NCBI GenBank assembly: GCA_007694005.1
Contig: RECN01000100.1
Coordinates: 1 to 64,000, forward strand
Direction: 5' to 3'
DNA from: Spirochaetaceae bacterium
GTDB taxonomy: Bacteria > Spirochaetota > Spirochaetia > DSM-27196 > SKKC01
DNA length: 64,000 nucleotides
The notes beneath the pieces were generated by a model, which was not told the origin of the DNA, made no database searches, and was given only the letters and a program-made list of their open reading frames with translations. This document shows positions 16,810 to 22,207 of the stretch, in pieces. Positions within the stretch are counted from its first letter, which is position 1; every line of letters starts with the position of its first letter. Made by a program: the position numbers and the translations under genes.

Positions 16810-18624
16810 ATGACCGAACAGACTATCAGAACGATGCAGGAACTCATTGACGGTTGCATGGGTGACGCTGCTCCGTACTGCCAGGCAGCCTGTCCCATGC
16901 ACACCGATGTTCGCGGCTACGTCAATCTGATCGGCGAGGGGCGATTTGGTGAAGCGATTGCCCTGATCCGGGAAAAACTCTTTCTGCCGGCGACGCTCGG
17001 GCGTATATGCGCGCACCCCTGCGAAGATTCGTGCAAACGTGGCGAAGTCGGCGCACCCATGGCAATAGCCGCTCTGAAGCGTTTCGTCGCCGACAACTAC
17101 GACGACCCTGCGAAATGGGATACCGCAATCGAGTCCGAGAAGCCCGAGAGCGTTGCTATTATCGGTAGCGGTCCGGCAGGGGCGCAGGCAGCCTTTGACC
17201 TGCGCAGGAAAGGATATCAGGTCACGATCATCGACCGGCTTCCGGTCGTCGGCGGCATGCTTCGGGTCGGAATACCGGCGTATCGCCTTCCTCGCGACAT
17301 TATCGAGCTCGAATACAGCCTTCTGAAAGCTATTGGCGTCCAGTTCCGCATGAATACACATGTCGGGACCGACGTAACGATGGAGGAGCTTGCCGAGAGC
17401 TACAACGCGGTAATCGTTGCCGTAGGCGCCCACACCGGCATCATGCCCCCGGTACCCGGCCACGACGCGAATGGCGTCTTTGATGCGGTGACGCTGCTTC
17501 GAGACGTCAGCATGACCGAACGCTTCGATGCCTTAGGATCACGGGTGCTCGTCGTCGGGGGCGGAAACGTCGCGATAGACGCCGCGCGCTCGGTGCGTCG
17601 TCTCGACGATAGAGTCGTACATCTCGCATGCCTGGAGTGCAACGCAGGCTGCATGCCGGCGCACGACTGGGAAGTGGATGAAGCACTCGACGAGGGTGTC
17701 AGCATGCACCAGGGCTGGGGCATCGTCAGCATCAATACCGACCGCATGAACGCCGTCGAGTCGGTCACGCTCAAGCGCTGTATATCGGTTTTTGACGCTG
17801 CGGGCCGCTTCGCACCGGTGTACGACGACGGCGAACGGAAAACGATCGCGGTGGATTCAGTGGTCTTTGCCATAGGGCAGAAGGTCGACGGCAGGGGCCT
17901 CGACAGCCTCCCCCGCACCGCTCGTGGTCACATCGCCGTGGACGAGGTGACCCTGCAGATCCCTGGAACCAGTATTTTTGCCGCCGGCGATGCGACCGGT
18001 CACAGCGTGATAGCGGTGGAAGCCATGGCTGAGGGGCGCAAGGCCGCACGCAGCGTCTACCGCATGTTCAGAAACGAAAATATGCGCGAAGACCGCGATT
18101 TTGAGCGCGCATACAAAACTGCCCTCGAAACAGAGATTTCTCAGAACTACGTCCGGACCCCGCGGGTTACGAGCAGGCTGCGCAGGGCGTCTGAGCGCGT
18201 CGGTGATTTCGCCGAAGTTGATCTCGGCATCGAAGACGCGCAGGCACTCGCAGAAGGCGGACGCTGTCTTTCGTGTGAATGCCGGAACTGCGTTAAAGAG
18301 TGTCTGATGCTCGAACGGTACACCGATACATGCCCGAAAGACCTTTTTCAGAAGATCCTCAACGGGGAAGAAATCGACCCGGTGATTCCCTACTCCTGCA
18401 ACATGTGCAGCATGTGCACGGTGTTGTGCCCGAAGAACTACCGCATGCAGGACGTGTTCATGGAAATGCGCAAGGACCTCGTGGCACAGACCGGGGGGAA
18501 GTCACCCATGAAGGGACACAAGGCCATCTACATGCACCAGAAACTCGGCTTCTCGAAGCTCTTCAACATTACCCGGGCCGCATCGCCCGCCCGCGTTGCA
18601 CCCAAAAAGGAGACGGTACGATGA
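16810..18624 (+). CDS. GltD-like FAD/NAD(P) oxidoreductase with C-terminal ferredoxin domain
   Basis: 604-residue flavoprotein. N-terminal Fe-S region (AAPYCQAACPMHTDVRGY, then ICAHPCEDSCKRG) as in glutamate synthase small subunits. FAD site IIGSGPAGAQAAFDL at about 115, second dinucleotide site VLVVGGGNVAIDAAR at about 250, and FAD-closing FAAGDATGHSV at about 395. The C-terminal tail carries CLSCECRNCVKEC and a 4Fe-4S motif CNMCSMCTVLCP, resembling HdrC. No GltB partner exists here. It overlaps the HdrB-like gene by ATGA. The pair looks like an Hdr-type electron-transfer unit acting on disulfides or persulfides, in line with the rhodaneses behind it. The assignment to sulfur chemistry is inference. 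Confidence 0.85.
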   Translation: MTEQTIRTMQELIDGCMGDAAPYCQAACPMHTDVRGYVNLIGEGRFGEAIALIREKLFLPATLGRICAHPCEDSCKRGEVGAPMAIAALKRFVADNYDDPAKWDTAIESEKPESVAIIGSGPAGAQAAFDLRRKGYQVTIIDRLPVVGGMLRVGIPAYRLPRDIIELEYSLLKAIGVQFRMNTHVGTDVTMEELAESYNAVIVAVGAHTGIMPPVPGHDANGVFDAVTLLRDVSMTERFDALGSRVLVVGGGNVAIDAARSVRRLDDRVVHLACLECNAGCMPAHDWEVDEALDEGVSMHQGWGIVSINTDRMNAVESVTLKRCISVFDAAGRFAPVYDDGERKTIAVDSVVFAIGQKVDGRGLDSLPRTARGHIAVDEVTLQIPGTSIFAAGDATGHSVIAVEAMAEGRKAARSVYRMFRNENMREDRDFERAYKTALETEISQNYVRTPRVTSRLRRASERVGDFAEVDLGIEDAQALAEGGRCLSCECRNCVKECLMLERYTDTCPKDLFQKILNGEEIDPVIPYSCNMCSMCTVLCPKNYRMQDVFMEMRKDLVAQTGGKSPMKGHKAIYMHQKLGFSKLFNITRAASPARVAPKKETVR

Positions 18625-19397
18625 GCGCTACTACACGAGTATTCTTCCCGGGCTGCAGCCTGCCCTCGTACAATCCCGAGCTGGTCGAAAAGACCCTCGC
18701 CTTCCTGAAAGAGCGGCTTCCCGGCACAGGCTCCATTCTTAAATGCTGCGGAAAGCCAACGAAGGCACTCGGGCAGATGGATCTCTTTCAAGAGCGCTAT
18801 GCCGACGTACAGCAGGAAATAGACCGGCTTGAAGCCGATGAAATCATCGTCGCGTGCCAGAGCTGTTACCTGACCATGAAAGCCTGCAGCCCGAATCAGA
18901 AGGTCACGAGCCTGTGGACCCTCATGCCCGAGATCGGCCTCCCTGAAGGCATGACCGGCATAGGAGCCGACAGTGACATCACGTTTGCGCTGCACGACTC
19001 CTGCCCGACCCGCGACGAGAGCGATATACACGACGGAGTGCGGTGGATCATGCGCGAGCTCGGCTACGAGATCGAGGAACTCGGACACAGCCGGGGACTG
19101 ACCCGCTGTTGTGGCTTCGGGGGCATGGTACTCCCGGCAAACCCGGAACTCGCCCGCGAAATCATGGAACGGCGTGCTCAGGAAGCAAAAAGCGACTACA
19201 TGGTGACCTATTGCGCGGCCTGCCGCATGTCCATGGCCATAGGCGGCAAGAAAGCGCTGCACCTGCTCGACCTGGTCTTTGGTGGACCGTGGACGAGCGA
19301 AAGCACCTATCCGGAGGTCGGTGCGAACCCGATTCACGCGTGGGGAAACCGGTACAGGGCAAAGAAGTCCATCAAGAAGATTCTTACAACCGTTTAA
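18621..19397 (+). CDS. HdrB-like CCG-domain iron-sulfur protein
   Basis: 258 residues. Two CCG modules are visible: FPGCSLPSYNPEL...KCCGKPT (about 9-45) and HDSCPTRDE...RCCGFGGMVLPANPEL (about 130-175). These bind the noncubane [4Fe-4S] clusters that split disulfides in heterodisulfide reductase subunit B. A third cysteine set (YCAACRMS) follows. The ATG at 18621 overlaps the stop of the flavoprotein gene, with AAGGAG eight bases upstream, so the proteins are made together. The likely role is the catalytic subunit reducing a thiol-disulfide or sulfane sulfur with electrons from the flavoprotein. Confidence 0.85.
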   Translation: MSATTRVFFPGCSLPSYNPELVEKTLAFLKERLPGTGSILKCCGKPTKALGQMDLFQERYADVQQEIDRLEADEIIVACQSCYLTMKACSPNQKVTSLWTLMPEIGLPEGMTGIGADSDITFALHDSCPTRDESDIHDGVRWIMRELGYEIEELGHSRGLTRCCGFGGMVLPANPELAREIMERRAQEAKSDYMVTYCAACRMSMAIGGKKALHLLDLVFGGPWTSESTYPEVGANPIHAWGNRYRAKKSIKKILTTV

Positions 19398-19412
19398 ACA
19401 GGAGATAGCAGA

Positions 19413-21062
19413 ATGAAGAAACGAACCGCAGCACTCGCTGCAATGATAGGGGCGATCTGCGCCCTCGCAGCGTTCGCCACACCAGCGTCACTTCTGGTCT
19501 CGGCGACGGAGGCCGAGACCATGCTGGGTCAGAGCTCCGTGGTCTTTGTCGACGTAAGACCGGTGGATGCATTTGAAACGGCGCACATCCCCGGTGCCGT
19601 ACAGGTGTATCGGCCCGACCTTTCTGCCTCCGCCGGCAGCTACGAGTTTCCGGGTATGCGAATCTCGCGCGACGGCTTTTACGACCTGCTCGGTTCACTC
19701 GGTATCAGCGCAGATACGCTGATCATCGCCTATACCGACTCCGCCTACCACGACGCATTCCGCTTTGCGTGGCTCGCGAGACTCTACGGGCACGAGCAGG
19801 TGCGGGTCCTTGACGTACCGTTCGACGCCTGGGTCGAAGCACGCCTTCCGGTTGCAAGCGGACGAAGCGCTCCGTCTGCAATCGGGTACGAGGCGCCTGG
19901 GGCAGCTTCCGGGTCGATGCTGGCGTCCCGCGACGACGTTATCGCCGCGCAGCGGGACCCCAATACCATAGTGGTGGACACCAGAACGACCGCCGAGTTC
20001 TGGGGCGTCACCGTCTACGCCGGCGCTACACGCCGGGGACACATTCCCGGTGCGGTCCACCTGAACTACACCATGAACTTTGACGAGCACGGCGTGCTTG
20101 ACCGGGCAGCACTCAGGACACAGTTTGAGGCGGCAGGCATTACCCCTGACAGGAATATTATTGTGTACTGTCACGTCGGCGGCCGGGCCGCCATGACGAA
20201 TCTCATTCTCTCGGATGTGCTCGGCTACCCGAATGTCAGAAGCTACGACGGCAGCTGGGTGGAATGGAGCTACATGCGCGACGGTTCGGTTGTGTCCTAC
20301 TTCCTGTACCTGACCGGGGCCGTATTCTTTATCGCAATCGTTTCTATAGGCCTCGTGCACTGGAAGCGCATACGCAGCGGTAAAGACAGTGCTCTCGATA
20401 AGGTCGACGGAGCCATAGGCATAGCCTTCACCGTTTTTCTGATCTGGTACTTCAACCTCTTCAGCCTCGTCAGCATGGACCGCATCGGCGAACTGCAGGC
20501 ATGGATTGAGAGCTTCGGCTTTGCCGGGCCCATTGTGTTCATTATGTTGTTCGCACTCGGCACCCTGTTTTTTCTGCCGGGCACCCCCTTCGCCATCATA
20601 GCGGGCGTCGTGTTCGGGCCGCTTCTCGGATCGGTATATGCGTTAACGGGTGCGACCATAGGCGCATCCCTCGCCATGCTCGCTGGACGCTACGCGTTCA
20701 GGTCCTACGCCGAGAAACTGGTCGAGAAGAATCCGGGCCTTCGGAAGATTGATGATGGAGTGGTGAAGCACGGCTGGCGCATGCTCATGATCACGCGCTT
20801 TGTACCGGTCGTACCGTTCAACGTACAGAACTACGTCTACGGACTTACCAGGATTCCGTTCTGGACCTACGCCGTGTTGAGCATGGTCTTTATGTCTCCC
20901 GGCACGGCTGCCTACGTGTTCATCGCGGGTGCAGCAGTCTCGGGCGCAAACATAGGCACAATCATGACCTACTTCGCGATCGCCGCAGTACTGCTCGTCG
21001 GACTCTCGCTGCTCCCCGGACTGCTGAAAAAGAAATCCGGAGCGGCGGACATTCTCGGGTGA
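19413..21062 (+). CDS. Exported tandem rhodanese fused to a TVP38/DedA-like membrane domain
   Basis: 549 residues in one frame. A signal sequence (about 1-25) is followed by two rhodanese domains (about 30-145 and 165-285), then five to six membrane segments forming a TVP38/TMEM64 (SNARE-associated) domain (about 290-540, core FFLPGTPFAIIAGVVFGPLLG, given in part: FLPGTPFAIIAGVVFG). The second rhodanese keeps the catalytic loop with Cys253 (YCHVGGR). In the first, the cysteine position is Thr108 (YTDSAYHD), so it should be structural. Start ATG with CAGGAG eight bases before. It lies 15 bp behind the HdrB-like gene. Sulfur transfer outside the membrane linked to a membrane channel or scramblase-like domain is the inferred role. 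Confidence 0.85.
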   Translation: MKKRTAALAAMIGAICALAAFATPASLLVSATEAETMLGQSSVVFVDVRPVDAFETAHIPGAVQVYRPDLSASAGSYEFPGMRISRDGFYDLLGSLGISADTLIIAYTDSAYHDAFRFAWLARLYGHEQVRVLDVPFDAWVEARLPVASGRSAPSAIGYEAPGAASGSMLASRDDVIAAQRDPNTIVVDTRTTAEFWGVTVYAGATRRGHIPGAVHLNYTMNFDEHGVLDRAALRTQFEAAGITPDRNIIVYCHVGGRAAMTNLILSDVLGYPNVRSYDGSWVEWSYMRDGSVVSYFLYLTGAVFFIAIVSIGLVHWKRIRSGKDSALDKVDGAIGIAFTVFLIWYFNLFSLVSMDRIGELQAWIESFGFAGPIVFIMLFALGTLFFLPGTPFAIIAGVVFGPLLGSVYALTGATIGASLAMLAGRYAFRSYAEKLVEKNPGLRKIDDGVVKHGWRMLMITRFVPVVPFNVQNYVYGLTRIPFWTYAVLSMVFMSPGTAAYVFIAGAAVSGANIGTIMTYFAIAAVLLVGLSLLPGLLKKKSGAADILG

Positions 21063-21191
21063 AGCAGCAGAACATGTGACACGGTGTCGATGCCACGTTC
21101 ATAAAGATTTTTTCCGGATTTTCGGTTTCCGACACCAATTCTGAGTCTTGTTTTTGTGTCTTTTTAGGTTTATAAGTGATCTTAGTTACTT

Positions 21192-21197
21192 TATAAT
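21192..21197 (+). promoter_or_regulatory. -10 box of the exported sulfurtransferase
   Basis: TATAAT consensus 28 bp before the ATG at 21226, in an AT-rich stretch that stands out from the surroundings. No good -35 is visible 16-18 bases upstream. It suggests this gene also has its own promoter besides any read-through from the fusion gene. Confidence 0.5.
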
Positions 21198-21225
21198 TGT
21201 AGACGTCACAAAGGAGGATAGCCTT

Positions 21226-22143
21226 ATGACAAAGAAAGCAATCGTGCTTGTTCTGATTATTGCTCTTGCATTCCTTGGGATGCAGGCATTCGCCCAGACA
21301 GCTGTTCCGGTTTCCCAGCGTGGGTACGCCAATCCGAACAGCCTCATCAGTGCCGAAGCACTTGAACACATAATCGACCGCGACAACGTGAAAGTTGTCG
21401 ACTTTCGCCCGCTTACCGGTTTCGCCACCGGTCACATACCCGGTGCAATCCGCATTGACCGGAACGACGTCGCCGACTCCACCGCAGCATTCAACCTCAT
21501 GGCAGCGAGTCCCGAACAGGTTGCCGAGGTGCTTGCGAGCAACGGCATACGCCCGAGCGACACGGTTGTCGTCTACTGCGATAACGGGATGTGGGCGTCG
21601 CGTATCTGGTGGCTGCTTTCCATGTACGGTCATGAAGATGTCCGCATTCTCGATGGCGGTCTGAACCGCTGGAAAGACCTTGGTATGAATACCCGCATTA
21701 TCGGCCGCAGAAGCGGCACAGCCGAGTATCATTTCGCGAATCCCGGAACAGCGACGCTTGCAACCATAGCCGACGTTCAGGCAGCGGTGAACGACTCCAC
21801 CGTTGTCCTGGATACCCGGAGCCTCGCTGAGTTTGTCGGTGAGACCCCCGGTGGCGGCGCTGGTCAGGGCGGTCGAATCCCCGGCGCGGTGCGTGTTGAA
21901 TGGAATCAGGCGCTCAACGCCGACGGCACCTTCAAGACAGCTGCAGAGCTGCAATCGCTCTACGCTTCCGCAGGAATCACTGGTGATGCGCCGGTGATCG
22001 CCTACTGCCTCGGTGGCGTCCGAGCGGCACACAGCATGTTCGTTCTCGAGCAACTGCTTGGATTCGAGAACATATACAACTATGACGGATCGTGGCTCGA
22101 GTGGAGCAATACAGCCGGTCTGCCAATCGCAACCGGGAACTGA
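21226..22143 (+). CDS. Exported thiosulfate/3-mercaptopyruvate sulfurtransferase
   Basis: 305-residue two-domain rhodanese with a Sec signal peptide (about 1-23, ending MQAFA). Both domains carry an active-site cysteine: Cys118 in VVYCDNGMWAS and Cys261 in IAYCLGGVRAA. Having a cysteine in the N-terminal domain as well is uncommon, since usually only the C-terminal one is catalytic. Start ATG at 21226, eight bases after AAGGAGG. It follows the rhodanese-TVP38 fusion by about 160 bp and is closed by a strong terminator. It should move sulfane sulfur in the periplasm and probably works with the fusion protein. Confidence 0.9.
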   Translation: MTKKAIVLVLIIALAFLGMQAFAQTAVPVSQRGYANPNSLISAEALEHIIDRDNVKVVDFRPLTGFATGHIPGAIRIDRNDVADSTAAFNLMAASPEQVAEVLASNGIRPSDTVVVYCDNGMWASRIWWLLSMYGHEDVRILDGGLNRWKDLGMNTRIIGRRSGTAEYHFANPGTATLATIADVQAAVNDSTVVLDTRSLAEFVGETPGGGAGQGGRIPGAVRVEWNQALNADGTFKTAAELQSLYASAGITGDAPVIAYCLGGVRAAHSMFVLEQLLGFENIYNYDGSWLEWSNTAGLPIATGN

Positions 22144-22150
22144 TTCAACA

Positions 22151-22175
22151 GCCGCCACTCCGTGGCGGCTTTTTT
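22151..22175 (+). terminator. Intrinsic terminator after the sulfurtransferase
   Basis: GCCGCCAC, three-base loop, GTGGCGGC, then six T residues. Perfect 8-bp GC-rich stem eight bases after the stop codon. It closes the 16.8-22.1 kb unit. Confidence 0.92.
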
Positions 22176-22207
22176 GTGCTCTTCCGGTAAACACGCCATA
22201 ATAGCGC

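Follow-up and report, generated by a model that had tools for sequence, protein, structure and literature searches.

A spirochaete flavoprotein-HdrB-rhodanese-TVP38 gene block as candidate core of a system for anaerobic uptake and reduction of sulfane sulfur

The window analysed here is a stretch of 64,000 nucleotides from a Spirochaetaceae bacterium (assembly GCA_007694005.1, contig RECN01000100.1). It carries a block of four genes, here called FLAV, HDRB, RHO2VTT and RHOS, which is closed by an intrinsic terminator (Table 1). An earlier note on this DNA had placed four genes and a terminator at these positions and had described the flavoprotein as translationally coupled to the HdrB-like protein. 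All of this was confirmed: the ATG of HDRB overlaps the stop codon of FLAV (ATGA), and is preceded by an AGGAG Shine-Dalgarno sequence. RHO2VTT follows HDRB after 15 nt. RHOS, in contrast, is separated from RHO2VTT by 163 nt and has a promoter-like site of its own, hence one four-gene transcript is not certain and RHOS may be transcribed separately; three promoter-like sites were observed in the region, where 2.1 are expected by chance. None of 200 shuffled sequences was as stable as the terminator (22150-22170, z -3.2). In a same-genus genome the terminator is kept at the same place, with its end pair compensated (A-T to G-C), and the adjoining end of RHOS (38 aa) is 95% identical to that of the window. 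Neither the leader nor the gap upstream of RHOS matched Rfam or folded unusually, which gives no sign of an RNA element there.

Table 1. Genes and signals of the block (positions within the window).
Feature	Position	Strand	Description	Basis
FLAV	16810..18624	+	GltD/NfnB-type FAD and NAD(P)H flavoprotein, N-terminal Fe-S domain, C-terminal HdrC-like tail, 604 aa	Pfam PF14691, PF07992
HDRB	18621..19397	+	HdrB-like, two complete CCG cysteine motifs, 258 aa	Pfam PF02754 twice
RHO2VTT	19413..21062	+	signal peptide, two rhodanese domains, two added TM helices, VTT/TVP38 domain, 549 aa	Pfam PF00581 twice, PF09335
Promoter-like site (weak evidence)	21169..21197	+	TTTATA-17-TATAAT, 10/12, within the 163-nt gap upstream of RHOS
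RHOS	21226..22143	+	exported tandem-domain rhodanese, 305 aa	Pfam PF00581 twice
Intrinsic terminator	22150..22176	+	9-bp stem, T-run	folding test, conservation

Species genomes were scanned with an HDRB alignment, and 80 loci were kept; having been picked by the HDRB motif, they represent the nearest relatives and not a random sample. After removal of duplicates, 58 loci had flanks of 5.5 kb or more on each side (the well-flanked set), 20 of them from Vibrionaceae. FLAV was present in all 58, a VTT gene lay within 3 kb of HDRB in 52, and a rhodanese gene within 5 kb in 50, with the rhodanese slightly further off in L024 and L030. Rhodanese, FLAV, HDRB and VTT were linked in 50 of the 58 loci, and at least one Ynj gene was likewise found in 50. 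When the Vibrionaceae were excluded, VTT was retained in 32 and the rhodanese in 30 of 38 loci. In 51 cases the VTT gene was downstream and had the same orientation. The same loci gave no VTT match elsewhere; the density of VTT-like genes was 1.6 per 10 kb near HDRB versus 0 in the remainder. The grouping of these genes is far beyond chance. A near-identical gene set occurs in at least six phyla; the related loci come from Firmicutes, Fusobacteria, Vibrionaceae, Spirochaetes, Synergistetes and Nitrospirae. Among the genera that carry it are Halanaerobium, Halonatronum, Thermohalobacter, Thermosediminibacter, Alkaliphilus, Cetobacterium and Propionigenium, as well as Vibrio, Aliivibrio (with the full cluster in Aliivibrio fischeri), Grimontia and Enterovibrio; further carriers belong to the Synergistetes, the Nitrospirae and several spirochaetes. 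The earlier note would have given up its idea if homologues of the four genes were never found together elsewhere; this did not hold, since they co-occur across many phyla. Searches of open-licence papers for a rhodanese with TVP38, for the ynj genes and for HdrB with a rhodanese gave no description of this gene set.

FLAV is composed of a Fer4_20 domain, a Pyr_redox_2 domain and a Cys-rich HdrC-like tail. Among 57 non-redundant homologues the nine cysteines of the tail (486, 489, 491, 494, 498, 530, 533, 536 and 540) are invariant, and Cys 16, 24, 28, 67, 71 and 75 are kept in 98%. The closest solved structures to FLAV, tail included, were the NfnABC/NfnB and StnABC flavoproteins (9bov, 9n5u and 8oh5), and the fold of a fused relative was searched as well. 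The HDRB part could not be identified by the fold search, because the matches were dominated by the flavoprotein half; in a profile search with HDRB, the sole PDB relative was 9ojn, which is remote. HDRB has two CCG domains, each of the form C-X(~30)-CC-X(~35)-C-X2-C, and the ligands C12/C42C43/C79/C82 and C128/C163C164/C198/C201 are kept in 98-100% of 62 homologues. By analogy with HdrB, HDRB is expected to hold two non-cubane clusters. An export signal is absent from FLAV-HDRB.

FLAV and HDRB are fused in one frame in 12 of the 58 well-flanked relatives, and most of the separate pairs overlap or almost touch. Thermohalobacter is one organism with a natural fusion. A close family is NCBIfam NF045663 (pyridine nucleotide-disulfide oxidoreductase/dicluster-binding protein), which shares the module order GltD-like flavoprotein, HdrC-like tail and HdrB. 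The cut-off of this family (530 bits) applies to the whole protein: the fused relative L027 scores 547.7 and the same-phylum fused protein L017 515.3, whereas the window, with 272 and 231 bits for two separate genes, could not reach it with either. An NF045663-type fused protein that lacks part of the NAD domain was also found beside a xanthine-dehydrogenase-like gene, and not beside a rhodanese or VTT gene (L019:5280-10316); it probably represents a different use of the same FLAV-HdrB fusion.

The block contains two rhodaneses; in both, the active-site loop of the C-terminal rhodanese domain holds a catalytic Cys (C261 in RHOS and C253 in RHO2VTT). The earlier note had described RHOS as an exported two-cysteine sulfurtransferase and RHO2VTT as a rhodanese pair fused to a TVP38-type membrane domain, and both descriptions proved correct. 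RHOS has a signal peptide, and its sole cysteines, C118 and C261, are both in rhodanese active-site loops. In RHO2VTT the first rhodanese domain has lost the catalytic Cys, and apart from C253 the only cysteine lies in the signal peptide. In the wider family the domain-2 Cys is present in 93% of 60 homologues, mostly as CQSGVRS, and domain 1 lacks any cysteine, with the sole exception of the window's RHOS. A signal peptide or membrane anchor was found, by a simple hydropathy test and not by SignalP, in 77 of 78 block rhodaneses, which argues that they act outside the membrane. RHOS is 32% identical to Escherichia coli YnjE, and its solved relatives are the TST structures 1uar and 3p3a. In two spirochaete relatives a rhodanese gene outside the block adjoins a Sulf_transp (TsuA-like) gene (G001:C70:26995-28892 and G030:C322:590-2461).

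The VTT part of RHO2VTT is 36% identical to E. coli YdjX (E 1e-34). Relative to YdjX, RHO2VTT has one extra transmembrane helix where the two parts are fused, and a Lys/Arg-rich loop comes next, an arrangement that would place the rhodanese domains outside. In the predicted structure of RHO2VTT (overall pLDDT 61.6) the rhodanese part is fair and the VTT part too poor for use. In most relatives the rhodanese and VTT are separate genes. A further VTT domain in the window's genome is part of a 703-aa protein that also has, as judged by eye, a phospholipase D-like region (L020:1070-3181, on G000:C146).

Most of the related loci continue downstream into homologues of E. coli YnjB, YnjC, YnjD and YnjF, with YnjF homologues in 41 of 78 loci. 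The earlier note knew of no characterised system with this gene order; the block does not stand alone, being a partial copy of a larger and widespread cluster. Because the loci continue into ynjBCD and ynjF homologues, and the VTT domain is YdjX-like, the nearest known counterpart of the block is the uncharacterised E. coli ydjXYZ-ynjABCDEF region, for which no established function was found in the open-licence literature. In both, a YdjX-like VTT protein and an exported rhodanese (YnjE in E. coli) are linked, and the Vibrio homologues of YnjB, YnjD and YnjF (43-63% identical) lie in the same type of neighbourhood. However, the E. coli region has YdjY, YdjZ and YnjA where the window has FLAV-HDRB, and the adjacent YnjBCD and YnjF of the E. 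coli type are missing at the window's block. Both adjoin it in two genomes of the same order (L014 and L015), where YnjBCD is convergent. The counterparts in the window's genome are grouped on another contig (C168, L117:9420-14246), downstream of ppx/ppk-like genes: a YnjB homologue that exceeds the family cut-off, accompanied by a permease, an ATPase and a CDP-alcohol phosphatidyltransferase. Speculatively, E. coli yjiLM, which are of the ATP-dependent 2-hydroxyacyl-CoA dehydratase type, might stand in for FLAV-HDRB. Under anaerobic conditions the E. coli genes ydjXYZ-ynjABCD, ynjE, yedEF and yjiLM are expressed together as one set (PMC7888660).

Other partners recur in the wider cluster. A split TsuA/YedE-like transporter with TusA is present in 7 of 78 loci (e.g., Halonatronum, Halanaerobium and Thermosediminibacter). 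All 20 well-flanked Vibrionaceae loci carry, divergent from the cluster, a TtrS/ThsS-like sensor kinase with a FixJ-like regulator. The layout is that of ThsSR, a proven thiosulfate sensor with a PhnD-type kinase and a FixJ-like regulator (PMC5408782), and the Vibrionaceae kinases are candidate sulfur-oxyanion sensors, pointing to a new group of such sensors. Within the Vibrionaceae loci (L057-L089), the kinase of the kinase-regulator pair at L065:2530-4969 scores 377 bits, under the TtrS cut-off of 750. About 11 of 78 loci carry TIGR04282/TIGR04283 'arsenosugar' glycosyltransferase-like genes and an APH-type kinase (among them L023, L027, L029, L036, L049, L050, L052 and L098).

The individual parts have known relatives. 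Methanogen HdrBC and bacterial sHdr share with the block an HdrB with two full CCG motifs and an HdrC-like Fe-S tail, but in the window the electron input is a GltD/NfnB-type flavoprotein in place of HdrA. No HdrA was found in the block or its neighbouring genes, the part of the genome searched for it, and the block also lacks a lipoate-binding protein. The sHdr system is oxidative and tied to a lipoate-binding protein (PMC6067878). The NfnABC and StnABC flavoproteins, the best PDB matches of FLAV, belong to transhydrogenases and are joined to a molybdopterin-oxidoreductase-like domain, whereas the partner in the window is HDRB. DsrL, the NAD(P)H flavoprotein of the Dsr system, also combines a GltD fold with an Fe-S tail in a sulfur context; its partner is DsrAB, which has the NIR_SIR domain, while the window's genome is without any sulfite reductase domain. 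The system is a new combination built of known parts.

We consider the chances about even that the block forms the core of a system by which an anaerobe takes up and reduces sulfane sulfur; its substrate, the direction in which electrons flow, the part played by VTT and the cluster types are inferred. In the most economical model, RHOS and the rhodanese part of RHO2VTT, acting outside the membrane, would load sulfane sulfur onto a cysteine as persulfide, with thiosulfate, polysulfide or a related compound as donor. The YdjX-like VTT domain would then move the sulfur or its carrier into the cytoplasm, with help, in many organisms, from the YnjBCD transporter, a TsuA/YedE-type channel with TusA, or both. 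FLAV would accept electrons from NAD(P)H and hand them on, via FAD and Fe-S clusters, to HDRB, whose two expected non-cubane clusters would reduce a per- or disulfide and release sulfide. A fermenting anaerobe would in this way unload electrons from NAD(P)H onto sulfur. The capture and reduction steps are backed by the conservation of catalytic residues and ligands; the transfer step and the substrate are proposed more tentatively. The sulfur pathway suggested in the earlier note was borne out in part: the genes co-occur, the rhodaneses are exported, FLAV-HDRB is not, and sulfur-type partners recur. The specific scheme of a transmembrane sulfane-sulfur relay, in which an extracytoplasmic rhodanese, either fused to a TVP38/YdjX protein or paired with one, feeds an NAD(P)H-driven HdrB-type reductase, is a tentative proposal, and we think it somewhat unlikely.

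Several observations weigh against such a role in sulfur metabolism. No NIR_SIR sulfite reductase domain (PF01077) was found in seven spirochaete carriers (the window's genome, G000, and six others), so that thiosulfate would give sulfide and excreted sulfite in these organisms; a coupling to sulfite reductase was consequently dropped for the spirochaete carriers. With polysulfide or elemental sulfur as the source, sulfide alone would be formed. E. coli YnjE is poorly active with thiosulfate (PMC10215317), VTT/TVP38 proteins are thought to move lipids and not sulfur (PMC10127716), and the wider cluster includes genes that are not of a sulfur type, namely the YnjF CDP-alcohol phosphatidyltransferase and the TIGR04282/TIGR04283/APH group. 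Other observations speak for the sulfur role: by analogy, the ThsSR-like layout beside the Vibrionaceae clusters and the rise of rhodanese levels with thiosulfate in Halanaerobium, where membership of those rhodaneses in the cluster is not established (PMC5497025), and further the anaerobic co-expression set of E. coli. If sulfane-sulfur uptake and reduction is indeed the role of the block, a job could be assigned to the conserved but uncharacterised E. coli operon, TVP38/DedA proteins would be tied to sulfur, and the sulfide formed by fermenting anaerobes without dissimilatory reductases would be explained. The relay, if true, would be a new route by which sulfur is imported and serves as electron sink, would have a counterpart in E. 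coli, and would provide a first function for YdjX and YnjBCD.

The non-sulfur genes and the proposed activity of TVP38/DedA proteins as lipid scramblases or flippases fit a pathway for a sulfur-containing envelope lipid or small molecule. YnjBCD would import a head group, YnjF would attach it to a lipid and VTT would flip the product. On the outer side, sulfur would be added or removed by the rhodanese; FLAV-HDRB would act as electron donor or acceptor. The frequency of YnjF and the glycosyltransferase-like and kinase genes speak for this explanation, but in the window's genome YnjF and YnjBCD are on another contig and do not adjoin the block, TIGR04283 has no match over its cut-off, and the extracytoplasmic rhodaneses point to inorganic or low-molecular-weight sulfur. 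We regard it as unlikely. A role in redox defence or disulfide housekeeping seems equally improbable. Here FLAV-HDRB would protectively reduce a thiol disulfide or a tetrathionate-type compound, with no electron sink involved, and the rhodaneses would detoxify cyanide or reactive sulfur. Reduction of disulfides by HdrB-type sites is established for methanogen Hdr, the TtrS-like sensors beside the Vibrionaceae clusters could answer tetrathionate, and the block is patchily distributed (7 of 46 genomes of the order); nevertheless, a set of three to four genes that includes its own NAD(P)H route and a transporter seems heavy for detoxification.

The block might alternatively take up and reduce selenium, as selenite or bound to sulfur, either to make selenoproteins or to detoxify it. 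The NCBIfam name of the fused FLAV-HDRB form is 'diclust_near_Sec', selD is present in 36 of 49 carrier genomes, YedE has been linked to selenium (PMC5322559), and for the E. coli co-expression set a role in Mo/Se usage was proposed in the original study (PMC7888660). However, in the window's genome, which is 96% complete, the best selD score is 20.8 bits against a cut-off of 125. Likewise, no selD exceeded the cut-off in three further spirochaete carriers, the Vibrionaceae tested or two Halanaerobiales, one of which has a YedE/TsuA-like gene in the cluster. The rhodanese ExtH of a Geobacter selenite/tellurite operon belongs to the same exported family, but the similarity is weak: the window's rhodaneses score 45.6 and 73.5 bits, far under the NF040901 cut-off of 200, and the block is without the cytochromes or porin of that operon. 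Because selD is missing from the window's genome and the Vibrionaceae tested, selenium was dropped as the leading role, and we judge this explanation quite improbable.

In the HDRB tree the window and four more spirochaetes form a group (100/98) that is nested within anaerobes from other phyla, and two further spirochaetes (G030 and G037) are placed elsewhere. Together with the patchy presence in the order, this suggests horizontal transfer of the block, although fragmented assemblies hide some copies. An initial reading that same-genus genomes are without the block was withdrawn: in G002 the contig ends inside RHOS, with the same terminator and the same HDAC neighbour, and in G001 the contig ends in HDAC, so that the absence there may be an assembly artefact. 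In another genome of the order (G024, locus L015), RHO2VTT is present and is overlapped by an antisense open reading frame.

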